Of a DNA stretch of 23,024 nucleotides, positions 1 through 7,743 are shown piece by piece (the first letter of the stretch is position 1; each line of letters opens with the position of its first letter). A program made the translations under genes and the position numbers. The stretch spans positions 1 to 23,024 of the IMG/VR virus record IMGVR_UViG_3300036466_000344; one strand, 5' to 3'. Under the pieces are notes generated by a model. That model did no database searches. It had not been told where the DNA came from and worked only from the letters and a program-made list of their open reading frames with translations. The stretch comes from a virus.

Positions 1-10
1 AATCAAGTAT

Positions 11-265
11 TTTGATAATCAAAAGGAACCCCCATGAGTATCAAGTAGTTTGACAATCAAAGTATTTGAAAAACGCATGATAGTTATCGGCCTTAGTAAG
101 AGTCCTCAATAGTTTGATAGTCAAAGTATTTACTTGGCCAATCAAAGTAATATGCTAATATGCTAATATGCTAATATTATAATATGATAATATGATAATA
201 TGATAATATAAATTTACTTTGACTATCAAAGTAATTGGACTAGTACAAGTAATTTGAGTGTCAAA
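11..265. repeat. Array of five TTTGA-N3-TCAAA palindromes
   Basis: Perfect 5-3-5 palindromes lie at 11-23, 49-61, 113-125, 218-230 and 253-265, with spacers TAA, CAA, TAG, CTA and GTG. Most are flanked by AGTA on the left and GTA on the right. The copy at 215-233 is a perfect 8-3-8 palindrome (TACTTTGA-CTA-TCAAAGTA). A degenerate copy, CTTGGCCAATCAAAG, sits at 133-147. Two further perfect copies occur at 1906-1934. Conserved arms with a variable 3-bp centre are typical of sites bound by a dimeric helix-turn-helix protein, which is an inference here. Confidence 0.75.
113..230. repeat. 16-bp inverted repeat enclosing tandem AT repeats
   Basis: TTTGATAGTCAAAGTA at 113-128 is the exact reverse complement of 215-230. 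The enclosed 86 bases contain TATGCTAA three times in tandem (151-174) and TATGATAA three times in tandem (183-206), separated by TATTATAA. The arms are themselves members of the TTTGA-N3-TCAAA family, so two opposed binding sites may frame an easily melted segment. Cruciform formation is possible but unproven. Confidence 0.65.
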
Positions 266-275
266 GTAAATAAAT

Positions 276-331
276 GATACTTGGTATCAAAAAGATACTC
301 ACTCTCTTTTTGATCGTTGGTATCAAAAAGA
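276..331. repeat. Second palindrome type: 15-bp direct repeat, 36-bp period
   Basis: TTGGTATCAAAAAGA occurs exactly at 281-295 and 317-331, 36 bp apart. The first copy is part of a perfect palindrome GATAC-TTG-GTATC (276-288); the second is part of the imperfect GATCG-TTG-GTATC (312-324). CTTTTTGAT at 306-314 and ATCAAAAAG at 322-330 also form a 9-bp inverted repeat. The 36-bp spacing equals the period of the iterons at 526-702. Confidence 0.6.
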
Positions 332-343
332 AAGTGTTATAAT

Positions 344-399
344 CTATGATTGATTTAATATATGGTAATGATTTCACCTATGATTGATCTGATATATGG
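344..399. repeat. 22-bp imperfect direct repeat
   Basis: Positions 344-365 and 378-399 share 20 of 22 bases (CTATGATTGAT, then T/C, T, A/G, then ATATATGG), with a 34-bp period. The copies lie between the palindrome arrays and the iterons and are not part of any open frame. Their role is unknown; they may be protein-binding repeats of the same regulatory or origin region. Confidence 0.55.
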
Positions 400-409
400 G
401 TGTGATTGG

Positions 410-510
410 CCCGATTCGGGAATTTCGCGTTGAAACAAAGATCTGTATATCTGTGGGGGTAATCGCTCGAAATGCGTTAAATCGCATGTAAGCGCGCTTT
501 AAATCGATTT
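410..510. repeat. Island of short palindromes in a less AT-rich patch
   Basis: Four palindromes cluster within 101 bases: CCCGA-T-TCGGG (410-420), ATGCG-N6-CGCAT (472-476 with 483-487), AGCGCGCT (491-498) and AAATCGATTT (501-510). This is the only GC-containing patch in the first 880 bases and it directly adjoins the AT-rich iterons. Such an arrangement is compatible with an origin, but no consensus DnaA box (TTATCCACA) is visible. Confidence 0.45.
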
Positions 511-525
511 GATAATATTTTTACC

Positions 526-702
526 TATTATAATATGTTAATATATAATCAAATATAATCATATTATAATATGTTAATATATAATCAAATATTAAAATAT
601 TATAATATGTAAATATATAATCAAATATTAACATATTATAATATGATTATATAATCAAATATTAACATATTATAATATGATTATATATAATCAAACATAT
701 AT
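526..702. repeat. Five tandem 36-bp AT-rich iterons
   Basis: The unit begins TATTATAATATG, usually continues with a TTAATATATAATCAAATAT-like stretch, and recurs at 526, 562, 598, 634 and 668, giving periods of 36, 36, 36 and 34 bp. In copies 2, 4 and 5 the two bases before the unit complete the perfect 14-bp palindrome CATATTATAATATG. The same 12-mer appears alone at 175, 855, 1827 and 1869. Tandem iterons of this kind are known from phage and plasmid origins and centromeres. Assignment to either is inference. Confidence 0.7.
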
Positions 703-818
703 TAAATGTATATCTAACATTGATATCTTATATCAAAGAATATCAAGTAATTCGTGACTATATCGCGAAATGGTCATATAATATATTATAGAAATAAATA
801 AAAAGCAAAATATTTTAC

Positions 819-838
819 ATATTACGAAAGCGTAATAT
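819..838 (+). promoter_or_regulatory. 8-bp hairpin in the leader of the first small gene
   Basis: ATATTACG (819-826) and CGTAATAT (831-838) are perfect inverted arms around an AAAG loop. The element lies 42 bases before the start at 881. The sequence TTACATATTAC at its left edge recurs in the larger hairpin ahead of the third small gene (1449-1482), suggesting a shared leader structure. No T-tract follows, so it is not a typical terminator. Confidence 0.45.
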
Positions 839-880
839 AACAGCCACATTATCGTATTATAATATGAGGAGATGATTTAA

Positions 881-1096
881 ATGAAAATGAACAATTTAAA
901 CTGCTACAATACAGGATACGTATTTCAAGACCAAGATGAAAAATGTTTCATAACAGATATATTCGTAGATGAAAATAAAAATTATTTTCATAATGAATTA
1001 AAAGAAATCTCATACGATCAATATATGAGCGCGAAAAAATTTAATAAAAAAAGAATATTAGTAATGTTTCCTATCGAAGCTGCAAACAAATTCTAA
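881..1096 (+). CDS. Small acidic protein of unknown function (71 aa)
   Basis: I do not recognise this protein. It is 71 residues, starts with MKMNNLNC and ends EAANKF, and has alternating polar and aromatic residues with several acidic patches (DQDEK, DIFVDEN). No signal peptide, membrane segment or known motif is visible. ATG 881 is preceded by GAGGAGATG, a good Shine-Dalgarno sequence with suitable spacing. It is the first of three small + strand genes that share leader elements and end at a single terminator. Its position in a repeat-bounded, very AT-rich module outside the virion cluster suggests an early or accessory phage function, such as host takeover, counter-defence or replication control. 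That is inference from position only. Confidence 0.7.
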   Translation: MKMNNLNCYNTGYVFQDQDEKCFITDIFVDENKNYFHNELKEISYDQYMSAKKFNKKRILVMFPIEAANKF

Positions 1097-1115
1097 TAAC
1101 ATAATATATCGTTTT

Positions 1116-1134
1116 TTACTACCTTAGGAGGTAA
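1116..1134 (+). promoter_or_regulatory. Duplicated 19-base leader with ribosome-binding site, copy 1
   Basis: TTACTACCTTAGGAGGTAA lies 5 bases before ATG 1140 and is repeated exactly at 1490-1508 before the third small gene. It contains a full AGGAGGT Shine-Dalgarno sequence that can pair with the upstream ACCT (TACCT-TAGG-AGGTA). The ribosome-binding site could therefore be partly sequestered in a small hairpin. Confidence 0.55.
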
Positions 1135-1139
1135 CTATA

Positions 1140-1439
1140 ATGAATAAATATACAATAAACGAGAATATCGATAAAAACAATAGATTGAGATTATTTCATA
1201 ATACGATACAAGCTATTTGTATTGTGGAAAAAGAAAAAAATACTACAACTAAATATTATAATCTATATTTACTAAGCAAATTCAAAGATTTCATAGCTGA
1301 AGATGATTTCACAATAGTGTATCAAAATTACGTATTTGAAAATAATGAAATATCTACTATTAGATCTATCTTTGAAGATTTTGAAGATACTAAGCTATTT
1401 GATAGAATAGAAAATTTATTTACTTGTAACATATTATAA
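1140..1439 (+). CDS. Small protein of unknown function (99 aa)
   Basis: This gene is not recognised. The 99-residue product begins MNKYTINENIDK and is rich in Asn, Ile, Phe and acidic residues, with an acidic C-terminal half (FEDFEDTKLFDRIENLF). No membrane segment or catalytic motif stands out. Start ATG 1140 follows AGGAGGTAACTATA, part of a 19-base leader shared with the next gene. It lies 43 bases after the first small gene and 74 before the third. The three have the same strand, similar size and similar leaders, so they probably form one transcription unit. Base composition is clearly more AT-rich than the structural genes, which could mean a different origin or weaker constraint. Confidence 0.7.
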   Translation: MNKYTINENIDKNNRLRLFHNTIQAICIVEKEKNTTTKYYNLYLLSKFKDFIAEDDFTIVYQNYVFENNEISTIRSIFEDFEDTKLFDRIENLFTCNIL

Positions 1440-1448
1440 TAAATCAAT

Positions 1449-1482
1449 ATATTACATATTACCCAAGGGTAATATGTAATAT
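1449..1482 (+). promoter_or_regulatory. 16-bp perfect inverted repeat before the third small gene
   Basis: Positions 1449-1464 (ATATTACATATTACCC) and 1467-1482 are perfect reverse complements around only two bases (AA). In RNA the innermost pairs would open to give a stable hairpin. In DNA it is a near-perfect 34-bp palindrome suitable for a dimeric protein. It has no following T-run, so an intrinsic terminator is unlikely. It lies just before the shared 19-base leader at 1490-1508. Confidence 0.65.
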
Positions 1483-1489
1483 AATTAAC

Positions 1490-1508
1490 TTACTACCTTA
1501 GGAGGTAA
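1490..1508 (+). promoter_or_regulatory. Duplicated 19-base leader with ribosome-binding site, copy 2
   Basis: Exact second copy of the 19-base leader found at 1116-1134, ending 5 bases before ATG 1514 with the same spacing. The exact conservation in an otherwise diverged AT-rich region suggests duplication of a gene-plus-leader unit or selection for a common control signal. Confidence 0.55.
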
Positions 1509-1513
1509 TCAAA

Positions 1514-1765
1514 ATGACAAACAAATTAATAAAAATATTAAATGAAAAGACATATGAAAATATTATCATTGATGATGATAATTTCTTAGTACTAAATGAT
1601 ATGTATATAAATGAAGATGAAGAACTCATATTAGATATTCATGGTATGTCTTATGTATTAAATGAAAGGAATGTAATGTTTAATGAAAAAAATAAAACAT
1701 TTTATATTAATGCATATAATATTGAGAATGAAGAAATTATAATGATAATGATTATAATATTATAA
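1514..1765 (+). CDS. Small acidic protein of unknown function (83 aa)
   Basis: This gene is not recognised. The 83-residue product has runs of acidic residues (IIDDDNF, NEDEELILD) and an isoleucine/methionine-rich C-terminus (residues 74-83). That tail is encoded by an AATGATAATG-type repeat, so it may be a recent read-through into repetitive DNA. Start ATG 1514 follows the shared 19-base leader with AGGAGGT. The terminator at 1777-1810 begins 12 bases after the stop, so this is the last gene of the module. Small acidic phage proteins sometimes act as nucleic-acid mimics in counter-defence; nothing beyond composition and location supports that here. Confidence 0.65.
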   Translation: MTNKLIKILNEKTYENIIIDDDNFLVLNDMYINEDEELILDIHGMSYVLNERNVMFNEKNKTFYINAYNIENEEIIMIMIIIL

Positions 1766-1776
1766 TAATATAATAT

Positions 1777-1810
1777 AATAAAACGATCTTATGCGATCGT
1801 TTTATTTTTT
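1777..1810 (+). terminator. Rho-independent terminator of the small-gene module
   Basis: AATAAAACGATC (1777-1788) pairs perfectly with GATCGTTTTATT (1795-1806) around a six-base loop (TTATGC). A T-run continues to 1810. This is a classic intrinsic terminator closing the three-gene unit on the + strand. Because the stem ends in A/T runs it could also work in the other direction. Confidence 0.85.
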
Positions 1811-1905
1811 ACTTGTAATATTATCATATTATAATATGTTTGCGTATTAACATATGATAATATTATAATATTATAATATGTTAATATGTAAGCCTGTCCA
1901 ATTAG

Positions 1906-1934
1906 TTTGAGTGTCAAACGATTTGAAAATCAAA
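1906..1934. repeat. Two adjacent TTTGA-N3-TCAAA palindromes
   Basis: Perfect copies lie at 1906-1918 (spacer GTG) and 1922-1934 (spacer AAA), with starts 16 bp apart. They match the array at 11-265; the GTG-centred copy has the same 13-mer as that at 253-265. With the left array they bracket the three small genes. The 3-bp gap between the two would place two dimers side by side. Confidence 0.7.
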
Positions 1935-2085
1935 GGACCCGCGGCCCGCTCTTTACTATGTCGGAGTGTATTCCAATATTTACCATTTTAAAACCGAAAA
2001 GGAACGTGTAGACCACATATACAAGGGAAAGCCGAATAACACGCCCCCAAAATATATTATACGGTATATAAAAGACTAAGGGGAA

Positions 2086-2210
2086 CTAAATAAAGAGATC
2101 TAAGGAATAAATACTAAGGAATATCTCTGAAACAATTCCTTAAAGGCTATTTATAGGACATTTCCTTAAGAAATACATAATTAAAGCTATTTTTATAGTA
2201 TTTTCTTAGA
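2086..2210. repeat. CTAAGG cluster and opposed CCTTA elements
   Basis: CTAAGG occurs at 2086, 2100 and 2114, exactly 14 bp apart. The last two extend to CTAAGGAATA. Opposed elements follow: ATTCCTTA (2135-2142), ATTTCCTTAAG (2160-2170) and ATTTTCTTAG (2200-2209). TAAGGAAT at 2115-2122 and ATTCCTTA at 2135-2142 form a perfect 8-bp inverted repeat with a 12-base spacer. A stretch around GCTAT is also repeated imperfectly with a 40-bp period. Function unknown; candidate regulatory or packaging-recognition DNA close to the terminase genes. Confidence 0.45.
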
Positions 2211-2655
2211 CTAAACAGTATAAAAAAGCCGTATCCTGTATAGGAAAATCTCACGAAAACTTGAATAAAATAGGCTAAAATATATTACCTAATTCAAAAA
2301 TCTCCTAAAAACAGTCCTAAAGTTCCGTACTGTCCACTAATTAACTATATATACTTATTTCACTACTGTTATATATATTTAAAATATATAGTAATAAAAT
2401 AAACAGAAATATATAATAGGTATATTTTTCAAATAGTATATAGACGTTAGAGTATAGTATTTAAGGTTAAGCACGCAGGAAGGAAGGCCCTTAATTAACC
2501 CTGAGGCTGTATAAAAGTGCCTTTAGATCGCCCTTATATCAAAGATCCTACACACATATGTATATGTGGTATTTCAATGAAAAAGGTCCTAATATGTGGA
2601 GGGGACTGTTTTTTGTGTGGCATACGAAAAAAATAAAAATAAAGATAAAAAGTTT

Positions 2656-2674
2656 AAAAAAAGCCGGGCTTTTT
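2656..2674. terminator. Possible bidirectional terminator hairpin
   Basis: AAAAAAAGCCGGGCTTTTT is a near-perfect inverted repeat with a GC core (GCC/GGC) and A and T flanks on both strands, as in compact bidirectional intrinsic terminators. The stem is short and the T-run is part of the stem, so activity is uncertain. It would insulate the packaging operon from upstream transcription. Confidence 0.4.
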
Positions 2675-2682
2675 CCTCTGTT

Positions 2683-2742
2683 ATATAGTATAATATATTA
2701 TAGTAGAATATAAAAAGAGCTTAACCTTATATTATACTATAT
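2683..2742. promoter_or_regulatory. 15-bp inverted repeat upstream of the terminase operon
   Basis: ATATAGTATAATATA (2683-2697) and its exact reverse complement (2728-2742) flank 30 bases, and the right arm ends 61 bases before ATG 2804. Next to the right arm is GCTTAACCTTA (2719-2729), the reverse complement of TAAGGTTAAGC at 2462-2472, which is itself preceded by GTATAGTAT. So an AGTAT plus AAGGTTAAGC box appears twice in opposite orientation. The location fits an operator or promoter element for the late genes. Promoter sequences could not be assigned with certainty. Confidence 0.45.
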
Positions 2743-2803
2743 TTTAAGAAAAATGTCAACAGAATCATAAAAATAAAAAAGTCATATTTGGGAGGAATTT
2801 ATT

Positions 2804-3256
2804 ATGAAAGGTTTGTCTATGGAACAAATACAATTTATGGATGTATATTTACGGGATTTTAATTTAGATGATGCTAAAATGGATGTAGATATTTCTGATA
2901 AAGAAGTCCAGGAGGCTTTAGAGCATTCACAAGTAAAAGAATTAATTGAAAGGGAGCAAGCATTCAGATTTAGAAAGTTGGGAATCACTCCGACAAGAAC
3001 ATTATTGCACATCGCCGAAGTAGCTTATAAGAAACCTTGTATATTAGTGCAGGGAGACGAATTTTACGATGAAAGAGAGGCAGCATTAGGTGTAGTAGAT
3101 ACGAAGGAACAGACAAAAGCCTTAGAGCTTTTATGTAAATATCAAGAGGTTCTTGAAAAAGGCCCTAAAGGCAAGAACAATGAAGAGATCTTAGGAAAAA
3201 TTGCAACCGTTGAAGAAGGGTTGTCCATCGCCAAGAGGTTGATGGGAGTGAATTAG
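2804..3256 (+). CDS. Terminase small subunit (putative)
   Basis: This 150-residue protein sits directly before the large terminase, where the small subunit normally lies. Small subunits bind the packaging site in phage DNA and load the large subunit. The N-terminal half (MEQIQFMDVYLRDFNLDDAK, then EVQEALEHSQVKELIEREQAFRF) looks like the helix-rich DNA-binding part; the middle (GITPTRTLLHIAEVAYKKP, EQTKALELLCKYQEVL) resembles the oligomerisation region of phage small terminases. ATG 2804 has GGGAGG with 8-base spacing. Oddly, the frame stops at 3256 while a coding-like frame one step back (-1) continues to 3360, just before the next gene, so the C-terminus may be frameshifted. The assignment rests on size, helix pattern and position. 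Confidence 0.7.
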   Translation: MKGLSMEQIQFMDVYLRDFNLDDAKMDVDISDKEVQEALEHSQVKELIEREQAFRFRKLGITPTRTLLHIAEVAYKKPCILVQGDEFYDEREAALGVVDTKEQTKALELLCKYQEVLEKGPKGKNNEEILGKIATVEEGLSIAKRLMGVN

Positions 3257-3360
3257 TAATAAATGCAGTTCTTAGAAGACAGACACACAGTAAAGTCAAT
3301 GTATTCTATTTCCCTCCGAAAGATAATAAGATGCGTCATCTAGGAGCTGTATTTATATAA
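3214..3360 (+). pseudogene. Start-less coding-like frame after the small terminase gene
   Basis: In the -1 frame relative to the small terminase gene, an open stretch runs from after a TGA at 3211-3213 to TAA 3358-3360. From 3241 it reads DGSELVINAVLRRQTHSKV and continues NVFYFPPKDNKMRHLGAVFI, which looks like real protein in amino-acid balance. It has no ATG, GTG or TTG until an ATG at 3331, and ends 15 bases before the large terminase start, which is normal gene spacing here. It may be the original C-terminus of the small terminase displaced by a one-base indel, a product of ribosomal frameshifting, or chance. No classical -1 slippery heptamer is seen in the overlap. Confidence 0.35.
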
Positions 3361-3375
3361 ATTAGGGAGGTTATC

Positions 3376-5076
3376 ATGTCATTATGGGGAAATACAGGAG
3401 TAGAAGATACAGACAAACCTATAGAAGATGTGAAAGTCGTAAAAGCGCCTATAATGGCCTTTATTCCCAAGGAAAAAGTAAAAGGGTATCCAACAGAGCT
3501 CGATCATGTTAATGCTTTTGATTTAACGGAGGCTGGAGCAGATCTGGGAGAGGTCAGTAGATTAGAGGACTACGTTGAGAAAATAGACTATGCATCATTA
3601 AAGCCTTCACAAAGAAAGGATTATGAAGATTTAGTCAATTACCTAGTACAAAACAGCTATTACAGCTATTTTAAATTATCATTTGATGAAAAAAACCCAT
3701 TAATCAAGGGAAGACATATTAGATTATTGTGCAACATAATGACCAGAGCGCTTAAAGGTGAATATAGAGGAGACGATGGTTTTACAAAGATCATTATCAC
3801 AATGCCTCCAAGACATCTTAAGTCAAGAACAATATCAGAATCTTTACCCTCTTATTTAATGGCGAAAGATCCAACAAGACATGTAATTGCGTGTTCTTAC
3901 TCAGCGGATCTAGGAGTTAAATTTGGAGCCAAAAACAAAGAGAAGTTTGAGACATTAGGAACTCAGTTTTTCGGCGTTGAGCTTAATAAGACGGAAAGAG
4001 CAAAAGCATCTTGGGAAACATCCAAGGGTGCAAAGTTCTTAGGAACGGGTATTGGAGGATCTGTAACAGGATTCGGTGCTGACTTATTAATAGTCGATGA
4101 TCCATTTAAAAACAGACAAGAGGCTAACTCGGAAGTTACGAGAGAGTATGTTTGGCAAGAGTGGGAAGACACATTAAAAACAAGAGCACACAAAAATGGT
4201 ATTATGATCGTAATTCATACGAGATGGCATGACGATGATCTGATAGGTCGGCTCTTAAAAGGCGAAGACTCTCACGAATGGCTACTTGTAAATCTGCCAG
4301 CTGAATGCCAAGATGAATCCACAGACCTACTAGGTAGGAAAATAGGAGAACCATTATGGCCAACTCAGTATAACAAAAAGTACTTCAACCAATTCAGAAA
4401 TCAAAAAAGAACTTGGTCAGCACTTTATCAGCAGAGCCCTGTAGTTGCGGGAGGAAACCTTTTTCGGTCATCTTTCTTTCGATATTTCACAATTGAAGGC
4501 GATGTATTATTACTTCACACATCAACTGGAATAAAAAGGCATTTTATGTATAATTGTTGGTCATTCCAAACAATTGATACAGCTTTGAAGGAAAAGGAAT
4601 CATCCGACTACACAGCTATGATTCAGATCATAGTAACTCCTGATTATGACTTATTAGTCAGAGATATTTTCAATGAAAAGTTGGAAGTACCTAAACAACC
4701 AGGAGCGTTAATATCTTATAGAGCTAAGTGGCAACCACAATTTCAACTAATTGAGGAAGCGCAGAGTGGAATCTTCTTATCACAGCTCTTTAAAGGAACA
4801 AGCATGCCCATAAGGACCGTGAAAGCGACAAAAGATAAGGTTACAAGATCTTATGAAGTTCTTACGTATTACGAAGCAGGTAAAGTGTATCATTACGCAC
4901 AAATGGGAAATTTGGAGATTTTTGAAAAGCAATTAGCAGCATTTCCAAATGTAAAACATGATGATATGGTCGATGCTTTAGCTCATGGAGGAAAGTATTT
5001 ATCACAAATCGAAGCGGATACAGGTATATGGGATGCATCAAAACATCGACATCAAGATGATGACGTAGAATACTAA
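3376..5076 (+). CDS. terL: Terminase large subunit (ATPase-nuclease)
   Basis: The large subunit powers DNA packaging and cuts concatemers at the portal. The 566-residue protein has an ATPase domain with a Walker A-type motif MPPRHLKSR (residues 143-151), the variant P-loop of the TerL group around the TIGR01630-type C-terminal domain, and a Walker B strand ADLLIVDDPF with acidic residues 241-242. The C-terminal RNase H-like nuclease has the expected Asp in QTIDTA (residue 401) and a late acidic cluster HDDMVDALAHG (residues 528-538). Length is normal, so the gene seems intact. The extra N-terminal 100 residues before the ATPase core are common in this group. ATG 3376 follows TTAGGGAGGTTATC. 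The portal gene follows after 20 bases. Confidence 0.95.
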   Translation: MSLWGNTGVEDTDKPIEDVKVVKAPIMAFIPKEKVKGYPTELDHVNAFDLTEAGADLGEVSRLEDYVEKIDYASLKPSQRKDYEDLVNYLVQNSYYSYFKLSFDEKNPLIKGRHIRLLCNIMTRALKGEYRGDDGFTKIIITMPPRHLKSRTISESLPSYLMAKDPTRHVIACSYSADLGVKFGAKNKEKFETLGTQFFGVELNKTERAKASWETSKGAKFLGTGIGGSVTGFGADLLIVDDPFKNRQEANSEVTREYVWQEWEDTLKTRAHKNGIMIVIHTRWHDDDLIGRLLKGEDSHEWLLVNLPAECQDESTDLLGRKIGEPLWPTQYNKKYFNQFRNQKRTWSALYQQSPVVAGGNLFRSSFFRYFTIEGDVLLLHTSTGIKRHFMYNCWSFQTIDTALKEKESSDYTAMIQIIVTPDYDLLVRDIFNEKLEVPKQPGALISYRAKWQPQFQLIEEAQSGIFLSQLFKGTSMPIRTVKATKDKVTRSYEVLTYYEAGKVYHYAQMGNLEIFEKQLAAFPNVKHDDMVDALAHGGKYLSQIEADTGIWDASKHRHQDDDVEY

Positions 5077-5096: not shown

Positions 5097-6452
5097 ATGG
5101 GTAAGAAACCGCATACAGGTTCAATGAAGAAGCCTGGTATATGGAAAGCTGATATTAAAAACGCAGATGAATCCAAAGGATCATCCAAAACAAAAAATCA
5201 AACAGCTCGAATGGATGCTAAGCTAAAGCAACCATGGTCACCCCTTTTAACTGGTTATGATACAATAAAAACTATCACGCCAGATAATAGCATGACAATG
5301 TCTCCTGAGGAAGTTGAAGGAGTAATTAGAATTAATGGGATTGCGAGGAATGCAGTTGAATTTCCAGCATCCGATGCAATAAGAAACTGGTTTTACATAG
5401 GCGCGATATCAGCGGACGATGATGCTGAAAGGGTATCTGACAGAGATGTGCATCCAATGAATGCTCAAATCCAAGCTAGAATGAGAGATTTGCAGTTTCA
5501 AGAAAAGTTGTTTATACACATAAGAAACGAAGCAGCTTCGGGATCATCACTATTATATATGGATATGAATACTAAAGGACCTGGAAACATATTATCAAAT
5601 CCAATAGAATTGGAAGACATTAAAAAAATCAATTTTTTAAATGTTATTGATCTATATGCAGTCCAAAGTGCACAAGTAAACAATTATCCACTGAGTAAAG
5701 AATATAGACAAGTACTTTCATATAAATTAAAAAATCAACAAGTAGTAGATAGGTCAAGAGTGCACCATTTGAATACGAAGTTCCAAATAGGAAACATCTT
5801 CGGATATTCAATATTAGAGCCTCTTGAATTAGCATTAGATGCTCAAAGAACACTTGTATGGGCAATAGGAGAGGTATCTCACTCAATGCTTTTCAAAGTG
5901 CTAAAGACCAAGGATGTGGACTTTACTGACGTGAAGAAGTACAGAGAAAGAGTAAGCCTGCTTAGGAATACATTAGCAACGAATGACCTTGTGGCAATTG
6001 GTGAGAATGAGGATTTAGACTTTAGAACACCCGGAGATCTTCCAAGAGTTCAAGAAATGTCTAGTATCTTGTGGGAAACGATTTCATGTATCACAAGAGT
6101 ACCAAAATCAATCCTTTTAGGAAAAACAGAAGGTAAAGTAGCCGGAGCGGAATACGATCATTTATCCTATTACATTAGGTTAGTATCTTTACAGGAAAAC
6201 TTCCTTAAAGAAGCTGTAGAGTGGGTTGTAGATGCATTATTTGCAGAAGCAGGACAATTAAATCCAGAATATAAGATAACATTTAATCCTTTGTGGAACG
6301 TATCAGAAGAATTAGATGCAAAGATCAGAAAAATGGAATCTGAGATTGATCTAAATGAAGCAAAAACAGAGGATCTTAAAAAGTTAGCAGATGAGAATTT
6401 AACACCTGAAGAAAAGAAAGAAATTGAACCGGGAGGTGAAGAAGATGAGTAA
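5097..6452 (+). CDS. Portal protein, DUF1073 type
   Basis: The portal forms the dodecameric ring at one capsid vertex through which DNA enters. The 451-residue product follows TerL and has the features of the DUF1073 portal family: an early INGIARNAVEFPASDAIRNWF block, QFQEKLFIHIRNEAASGSSLLYMDM with the strand before the hairpin, a central SRVHHLNTKFQIGNIFGYSILEPL block, and the C-terminal QENFLKEAVEWVVDALF helix. The last 50 residues are acidic and charged, typical of a flexible tail. ATG 5097 follows AAGGAGGAGAAGGCC. The stop overlaps the next gene's start by 8 bases, indicating translational coupling. No Mu gpF-like minor head protein follows, unlike many phages with this portal type. Confidence 0.88.
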   Translation: MGKKPHTGSMKKPGIWKADIKNADESKGSSKTKNQTARMDAKLKQPWSPLLTGYDTIKTITPDNSMTMSPEEVEGVIRINGIARNAVEFPASDAIRNWFYIGAISADDDAERVSDRDVHPMNAQIQARMRDLQFQEKLFIHIRNEAASGSSLLYMDMNTKGPGNILSNPIELEDIKKINFLNVIDLYAVQSAQVNNYPLSKEYRQVLSYKLKNQQVVDRSRVHHLNTKFQIGNIFGYSILEPLELALDAQRTLVWAIGEVSHSMLFKVLKTKDVDFTDVKKYRERVSLLRNTLATNDLVAIGENEDLDFRTPGDLPRVQEMSSILWETISCITRVPKSILLGKTEGKVAGAEYDHLSYYIRLVSLQENFLKEAVEWVVDALFAEAGQLNPEYKITFNPLWNVSEELDAKIRKMESEIDLNEAKTEDLKKLADENLTPEEKKEIEPGGEEDE

Positions 6453-7743
6453 GTTACATATAGTCAAGGGAACTTTTAGAAAAGATGCTATTCGTGAATC
6501 ACCTTCTGACGATTCAATCATTGTACCAATGAGAATCGCACAGGTAGGAATCAGAGAGTATCTCATAGAAAAAGATTTTGAATTTGATTATGAATTCTAT
6601 ATTCAAAGAGAAGCCTTCTTACCAGAACATCTTTTCAGACAGGAAACGTTAGATACAGCTAAAGGTGTGGTAGCAACACATTATCATCCTTGGGATATGA
6701 TAAATTCAAATAACTGGGATTGGGAAATGAAAGGTGTTACTATAGGAGAGGCGACAGTAGAAGACAACCAATTCATTGCAATGGATGTAAAAGTATTTGA
6801 TCCTACAATGAAAGCTTACATATTAAGTGAGATGTCTGATGGTGTATCGATGGGTTATTATTGTGATGTTATTCCAGAAGCTGGAGAATTAAACGGACAA
6901 CCATATGATGCATATGTTGAAAACATAAGATTCAACCACTTAGCATTTTGTGCAAGAGAAGATGCTAGAGGTGGAGAAGAGTTAGGTGTTAAGCTAGATA
7001 CAAAGGATTTAAAGGAACTACCTGATACTTCTAATGTTATATTAGATAAGGATTTAGGTTATAAAACGGCCTTTCTAGAGAAGGTACAGAAGTTTAGAAG
7101 AGACACACAAAATAAAGCGGAGGTACAGAATATGAAAGATTATAGGTTGGATGGAAAAAGCTACAGTATTCCTGATGAAATCGCAGCAAGAATAGATACT
7201 CTTGTTCAAGATGGTCAAGATGCTTCGGCAAAGCTTGATACTGTTAATAAGGAATTAACTGGTGTGAAAGAAGAATTAGCCACAGAGAAAACTGATAAGG
7301 CAGAATTACAAAAGAAGTTTGATACTACTGAAGGAGAAAGAGATGGGCTTCAAGAAAAGGTAACTGGACTTGAGACTGAAAAAACAGATCTTCAAACAAA
7401 ATTAGATGCAGCTCCAAAAGAGGAAGATATTATTGCAAGAATTAATCTTTCTAAGCAAGTTTCAGAAATCACTGGTGAGGAAGTTGACATCAAGATGGAT
7501 GTTACAGACATGAGAAAGAAAGCATTAGAGAAATTATGTGACGGTATAGATCTTGAAGGTAAAAGTGCAGATTATATCGAAGCAAGATATGATACAGTAA
7601 TAGAAAAGCATGAAGAAGAAGGATTCCCAGTAGTAGAAAAAAGAACTGATACTGATGAGGAACCTGGAGAAAAGCCTGAAGGAACTTTAAGAATTGATTC
7701 TAATGGACACGCATCAAATCATTTTTCAAATAAAAACAAATAA
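6445..7743 (+). CDS. DUF2213-type prohead protease fused to scaffold
   Basis: This 432-residue protein has two parts. Residues 1 to about 200 match the DUF2213 family, placed in head gene clusters and thought to act as the capsid maturation protease: HYHPWD (residues 79-84), GVSMGYYCD with Ser135 and RFNHLAF with His165, which resemble the Ser/His motifs of prohead proteases. Residues 230-432 begin MKDYRLDGKSYSIPDEIAAR and continue as a long charged coiled coil (about 260-340), as expected of a scaffolding protein. I chose ATG 6445, with GGGAGGTG six bases before it, over the upstream TTG at 6424. An internal ribosome-binding site and in-frame ATG at 7132 could produce the scaffold part alone. 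Protease function is inferred from family and context. Confidence 0.8.
   Translation: MSKLHIVKGTFRKDAIRESPSDDSIIVPMRIAQVGIREYLIEKDFEFDYEFYIQREAFLPEHLFRQETLDTAKGVVATHYHPWDMINSNNWDWEMKGVTIGEATVEDNQFIAMDVKVFDPTMKAYILSEMSDGVSMGYYCDVIPEAGELNGQPYDAYVENIRFNHLAFCAREDARGGEELGVKLDTKDLKELPDTSNVILDKDLGYKTAFLEKVQKFRRDTQNKAEVQNMKDYRLDGKSYSIPDEIAARIDTLVQDGQDASAKLDTVNKELTGVKEELATEKTDKAELQKKFDTTEGERDGLQEKVTGLETEKTDLQTKLDAAPKEEDIIARINLSKQVSEITGEEVDIKMDVTDMRKKALEKLCDGIDLEGKSADYIEARYDTVIEKHEEEGFPVVEKRTDTDEEPGEKPEGTLRIDSNGHASNHFSNKNK
7117..7134 (+). promoter_or_regulatory. Internal ribosome-binding site and start for a scaffold-only product
   Basis: GCGGAGGT (7117-7124) lies ahead of an in-frame ATG at 7132-7134, with 8 bases between GGAGG and the ATG, the same geometry as real starts in this operon. 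Initiation here would give a 203-residue protein holding only the coiled-coil scaffold region. Nested scaffold genes inside the protease gene are established, for example lambda C and Nu3. Confidence 0.65.
7132..7743 (+). CDS. Predicted nested scaffolding protein (internal start)
   Basis: This is the in-frame 3' part of the protease-scaffold gene, 203 residues starting MKDYRLDGKSYSIPD. It is rich in Lys, Glu, Asp and Thr with heptad-like spacing over DTVNKELTGVKEELATEKTD and the following 40 residues, consistent with an elongated coiled-coil scaffold, then a helical QVSEITGEEVDIKMDVTDM segment. The final 30 residues (DTDEEPGEKPEG onward) are acidic and disordered-looking before a KHD-poor tail ending NHFSNKNK. 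Scaffold proteins organise capsid subunits and leave or are cleaved before packaging. Making it in excess of the protease fits an internal start. The evidence is sequence and analogy only. Confidence 0.6.
   Translation: MKDYRLDGKSYSIPDEIAARIDTLVQDGQDASAKLDTVNKELTGVKEELATEKTDKAELQKKFDTTEGERDGLQEKVTGLETEKTDLQTKLDAAPKEEDIIARINLSKQVSEITGEEVDIKMDVTDMRKKALEKLCDGIDLEGKSADYIEARYDTVIEKHEEEGFPVVEKRTDTDEEPGEKPEGTLRIDSNGHASNHFSNKNK

Follow-up and report, generated by a model that had tools for sequence, protein, structure and literature searches.

Inverted and direct 8-bp half-sites in the control region of a tailed phage and their possible role as a multi-site operator

Contiguous short half-sites in direct and inverted order are a known signature of small dimeric ribbon-helix-helix (RHH) proteins. 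Proteins of this kind repress promoters, and some double as centromere proteins. The met boxes of the RHH protein MetJ are contiguous and tandem, and they are bound cooperatively. Here we describe an array of short half-sites in the metagenomic virus record IMGVR_UViG_3300036466_000344, whose entire linear sequence of 23,024 bases, a fragment and not a complete genome, was the window of the analysis. Among described systems, the met boxes read by Escherichia coli MetJ are 8 bp long and lie in promoter regions (PMC2775130). Heptads of 7 bp, in direct or inverted runs that overlap promoters, are the binding sites of the pSM19035 omega protein, and about four contiguous repeats are enough (PMC9499535). 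At TP228 parH, short degenerate boxes with AT-rich spacers are coated by RHH dimers of ParG (PMC7308502).

The array in the window resembles each of these systems in part. As in the pSM19035 parS bound by omega (ParBpSM, an RHH protein), short non-palindromic words form contiguous direct and inverted runs in several clusters. Here, however, the word is TAATATGN (8 bp) rather than WATCACW, it is set in fixed blocks of two left-pointing and two right-pointing half-sites (←← →→) with 4-bp linkers, and no ParA or omega gene was recognised in the window. The length of the operator word is that of met boxes, whereas its sequence is different, up to 15-20 half-sites are present, pairing in the array is strictly inverted and there is no metabolic regulon. 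With TP228 parH the locus shares an array of short boxes but neither the box sequence nor the arrangement, and no ParF or ParG genes were recognised in the window. Like the iteron origins of plasmids and phages it has tandem direct repeats in AT-rich DNA, yet each repeat is composed of inverted half-sites, copies lie outside the array and no initiator gene was recognised.

The first-pass annotation had described five 36-bp iterons built on a 12-mer core. Exact copies of TATTATAATATG indeed begin at 526, 562, 598, 634 and 668 (spacing 36-36-36-34), single exact copies at 175, 855, 1827 and 1869 bring the total to nine, and the palindrome CATATTATAATATG is complete at three array positions (560, 632 and 666), all as the annotation had it; a fourth complete palindrome lies outside the array at 1825. 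Spacing and copies stand, but the basic unit is smaller than the 12-mer, as the register is 8 bp. The 12-mer is the head-to-head (back-to-back) junction of two 8-bp half-sites TAATATGN, and the 36-bp repeat consists of four half-sites (←← →→, 32 bp) and a 4-bp linker, AATC. The 34-bp spacing reflects the identical four-half-site block with a 2-bp linker. Of the range given for the array, 526-702, the final bases fall outside the repeat; the half-sites span about 523 (first complete unit from 551) to 688. Matches to TAATATG are given below for the five units.

515-546, centre 530/531: array unit 1, ← ← → →; 4, 6, 7 and 6 of 7, outer left half-site degenerate
551-582, centre 566/567: array unit 2, ← ← → →; 5, 7, 7 and 6 of 7, core CATATTATAATATG at 560-573
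587-618, centre 602/603: array unit 3, ← ← → →; 6, 6, 7 and 5 of 7
623-654, centre 638/639: array unit 4, ← ← → →; 6, 7, 7 and 5 of 7, core at 632-645
657-688, centre 672/673: array unit 5, ← ← → →; 6, 7, 7 and 5 of 7, core at 666-679, 2-bp linker to unit 4

The register is not confined to the array. Half-sites with 6 or 7 of the 7 positions matched (n=33) stand contiguously, in direct and inverted order, in five separate places: 515-688 and the four listed here.

148-211, plus strand: eight direct tandem 8-bp half-sites, TAATATGC three times, TAATATTA, TAATATGA three times and TAATATAA
844-867: isolated site ← ← →, TAATGTGG, TAATACGA and then TAATATGA; 6, 6 and 7 of 7
1816-1839: isolated site ← ← → just past the terminator of a three-gene operon; 6, 7 and 7 of 7, core CATATTATAATATG at 1825-1838
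1858-1889, plus strand: four half-sites in register, TAATATTA, TAATATTA, TAATATGT and TAATATGT, the first two readable either way

This register and its recurrence are non-random. Same-strand TAATATG pairs (up to one mismatch) 8 bp apart occur 21 times in 1-2000, where Markov models of orders 2-4 predict 0.4-2.4 and an order-5 model trained on the repeats themselves predicts 6.4. The composite block, complete or with one outer arm missing, was seen 11 times against 0.01-0.04 expected with the arrays excluded from the training sequence. Its full four-part form was seen seven times (three being overlapping readings of one run, 1858-1889) against a mean of at most 0.13 even under the repeat-trained order-5 model. 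The non-randomness claimed earlier for the 12-mers holds as well, with 25 matches at up to one mismatch against 0.94 in dinucleotide shuffles, and nine exact copies against 0.006-0.77 expected per 2 kb of this AT-rich region under Markov models of orders 1-5. The most telling of the five places is 844-867, which abuts the ribosome-binding site of ORF1, the first gene of the operon. Two of its three words (TAATGTGG and TAATACGA, 844-859) carry G/C changes, and both the 8-bp step and the left-pointing flank (←←) are intact. Recurrence in five separate places supports the first-pass statements that the array argues for function and that it could serve cooperative regulator binding, the binder itself being presumed.

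The half-site clusters bracket one operon that has its own terminator.

881-1096, plus strand: ORF1, 71 aa, no family match; single-sequence model beta-rich, not RHH (mean pLDDT 62)
1140-1439, plus strand: ORF2, 99 aa, no convincing family (phrog_19307, E 0.0036); model uninformative (pLDDT 41)
1514-1765, plus strand: ORF3, 83 aa, no family match; its 3' end enters AT repeats
1777-1812, plus strand: intrinsic terminator of the ORF1-ORF3 operon, 12-pair stem and T run
628-655, plus strand: sigma-A-like promoter match in unit 4, TTAACA-16-TATAAT, 11/12
662-691, plus strand: sigma-A-like promoter match in unit 5, TTAACA-18-TATAAT, 11/12

In both promoter matches, which are weak in such AT-rich DNA, the palindrome core sits in the spacer. 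We give an even chance to the array being a multi-site operator, read at TAATATGN by a small dimeric DNA-binding protein and possibly also acting as a centromere. This reading is preferred because the sites bracket a terminator-ended operon, because RHH proteins repress promoters and, weakly, because two units read as promoters. We infer protein binding, an RHH type of binder and transcriptional control as the result; by analogy, the half-sites may work like RHH operators or centromeres, which is a likeness in working and not a claim of class membership. The binder would be encoded elsewhere in the phage or by the host. Four adjacent half-sites per 36-bp unit, two left and two right, would seat dimers side by side and cooperatively, and with five units an extended nucleoprotein complex would form ahead of the ORF1-ORF2-ORF3 operon. 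The same protein would occupy the sites at the operon's ribosome-binding site and past its terminator, as well as the direct array at 148-211. The likeliest outcome would be that the small-gene operon and the DNA around it are transcribed less, or at a set time.

A scan of viral contigs found paired CATATTATAATATG cores in only three records, two of which are large phage contigs, G001 (143 kb) and G002 (176 kb). At up to two mismatches these hold 39 and 58 copies, compared with 4 and 5 for the reversed control. The loci read from the two contigs overlap in sequence and are best taken as one lineage. In the regions read, their CATATTNNAATATG dyads are nearly all intergenic and often paired 27-34 bp apart, and several stand just past a terminator, with a perfect TTGACA-17-TATAAT promoter about 27-49 bp downstream. 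They thus have the same central palindrome as the core in the window and a similar setting, between genes and near terminators and promoters; unlike in the window, they are dispersed over many gaps and do not form one array. One stretch of 17 kb (L184, G002:28000-45000) is a small-gene region that has perfect promoters and in which about 30 palindromes of 14 bp are dispersed between the genes. The two contigs support transcriptional control in showing that the dyad can be a dispersed, promoter-linked phage element, which does not imply the same protein. No terminase match was found between them and the window.

Several observations weigh against the operator. Sites in the large phages have only the inner half-site pair, with outer half-sites in 2/64, and a search for RHH_1 found no protein of this family in either contig, nor in a further contig, L192. 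The core common to the window and these phages could be a product of convergence. Promoter-like matches are barely enriched in the region, with 42 found and 30.5 expected. No DNA-binding or RHH family match was obtained for ORF1-ORF3, and the ORF1 model, of low confidence, is not RHH. Nor was a gene for a half-site-binding protein recognised in the window, where the late-module ORFs were scanned in part. Finally, the five array units are tandem duplicates of one block and count as one event, because the linker is common to all five.

A replication origin, with the 36-bp units as iterons bound by a phage initiator and the melting DNA as unwinding element, is in our view unlikely. Tandem direct repeats and an AT-rich melting region are features expected of an iteron origin: the units adjoin the least stable DNA of the window, within 880 bp of non-coding sequence that holds several other repeats. 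Such instability is, however, equally expected of any AT-only operator array, and isolated occurrences of the motif abut a ribosome-binding site and follow a terminator. The scanned proteins of the 23-kb record (structural module and left control region) included no recognised initiator or helicase, and the single DnaA-box-like match in 1-3000, a weak one, lies at 1223 inside an ORF. Cumulative GC skew climbs nearly throughout the 23-kb fragment with no turning point at 526-702, as all genes point right and the skew is positive almost throughout. That the dyad is dispersed over many intergenic gaps and promoter-linked in G001 and G002 speaks against its marking an origin. The replication initiation proposed earlier thus found no positive evidence, and we prefer cooperative regulator binding for an element that looks functional and is of a known general kind. 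Less probable than an origin is a type Ib, parS/parH-like centromere. The phage would then be able to live as a plasmid, and its RHH partition protein would also repress its own genes. The likeness to the tetramer boxes of TP228 parH (PMC7308502) makes a partition role possible by analogy, and some distant terminase relatives are encoded on plasmid records, one of which has a gene annotated as ParA-family. These plasmid-borne relatives are, however, about 30-35% identical and in the terminase only, and no ParA or centromere-binding gene was recognised in the window.

It is still less probable that the repeats are AT-rich satellites, raised by polymerase slippage and tandem duplication without a selected function. 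The region is 75% A+T, and both the run at 148-211 and the five 36-bp copies are typical of slippage or duplication, but the isolated sites at 844-867 and 1816-1839 hold the register though they are not tandem copies, and repeat-trained order-5 Markov models give 0.13 full composites where seven were found. A role in packaging or DNA entry appears very improbable. The array would then be recognised by terminase, or belong to a non-coding stop region like those near the first-step-transfer genes of T5-like phages. The small terminase gene (terS) does lie 2.1 kb to the right of the region, and in L192, a contig with a gene for a T5-type DNA-transfer protein, a non-coding gap contains a long array of TAATATNC octamers. 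Nevertheless, the operon and its terminator separate the array from terS, no DNA-transfer gene was recognised in the window, the L192 terminase is of another family and the L192 arrays resemble simple satellites. We also rejected an RNA hairpin: the array folds well (-50 kcal/mol, z -8), as any palindrome array would, and a single core folds weakly (-0.9).

The late module of a tailed phage, myovirus-like, runs rightward from 2804, and its left flank is the control region. Matches to PHROGs in the late module identify small and large terminase, portal, protease, major head protein, sheath and tape measure, and further tail and baseplate-type genes were assigned by position. To the left of terS, 2.8 kb of very AT-rich DNA hold the three small ORFs, of no assigned family; no other 150-bp stretch of the window is less stable than the array itself. 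At about 25-37% identity, the proteins come closest to those of Bacillales and Listeria B054-type myovirus prophages. The large terminase (3376-5076), at 566 aa, is longer than those of the aligned relatives (roughly 450-500 aa) and is extended at the N terminus by several dozen residues.

Other elements were observed in the control region. A near-perfect hairpin of 16 pairs lies between ORF2 and ORF3 (1448-1483, -19.5 kcal/mol, z -6.3) and a weaker, similar one ahead of ORF1 (819-838); both may serve in RNA processing or attenuation. A leader, TTACTACCTTAGGAGGTAA, occurs twice, at 1116-1134 before ORF2 and at 1490-1508 before ORF3, and can, weakly, fold onto its own ribosome-binding site. A second dyad, TTTGANNNTCAAA, has seven exact copies, at 11, 49, 113, 218, 253, 1906 and 1922 (11-265 and 1906-1934), and none elsewhere in the window; about 0.03 copies are expected in 2 kb. 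It brackets the small-gene region, at which a second regulator may act. The only perfect sigma-A match within 1-3400 (TTGACA-17-TATAAT, 2731-2759, minus strand) points left, away from the late genes, and an inverted repeat of about 11 bp noticed by eye, TAAGGTTAAGC and GCTTAACCTTA, flanks the leftward stretch near 2462 and 2720.

Searches of viral, phage, plasmid and genome collections found no close relative, though very near records possibly lie outside those searched; terminase and capsid proteins likewise gave none among viral and genome contigs. Remote terminase alignment gave 160 loci whose structural proteins are only about 25-41% identical, with no significant match for ORF1-ORF3 and no array of the 526-702 type in the loci scanned. 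The DNA of the left region had no phage match, and plasmids gave only a trivial AT-rich one. No half-site block (up to one mismatch) was found in 399 genomes of the phylum of the Bacillales centre G003. GTTTGANNNTCAAAGTATTT gave only single matches in other phages, and exact matches to the 12- or 14-mer in the literature were to unrelated papers only. Contigs with the four-part block (L193-L198) were set aside, as in these unrelated phages the palindromes stand singly between genes, a possible convergence, and so were two further loci (L171 and L191) with isolated or coincidental repeats. In L192, two satellites lie in a 2.3-kb non-coding gap (6154-6435 and 7380-7550), a long one of TAATATNC octamers and one with the 16-bp unit AGTCAACGCTAATATT.

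A rather unlikely reading is that TAATATG half-sites are the word of an undescribed family of phage regulators, written as four-part ←← →→ blocks here and as simple dyads before many early promoters in the unrelated G001 and G002. With the repeat unit corrected, binding experiments are to be designed on 8-bp half-sites and not on 36-bp iterons. If the operator reading is right, the recognition word TAATATGN and its strict arrangement could guide a search for the cognate protein in complete relatives, and the control region of one phage would be linked with a dispersed, promoter-linked site of large phages.
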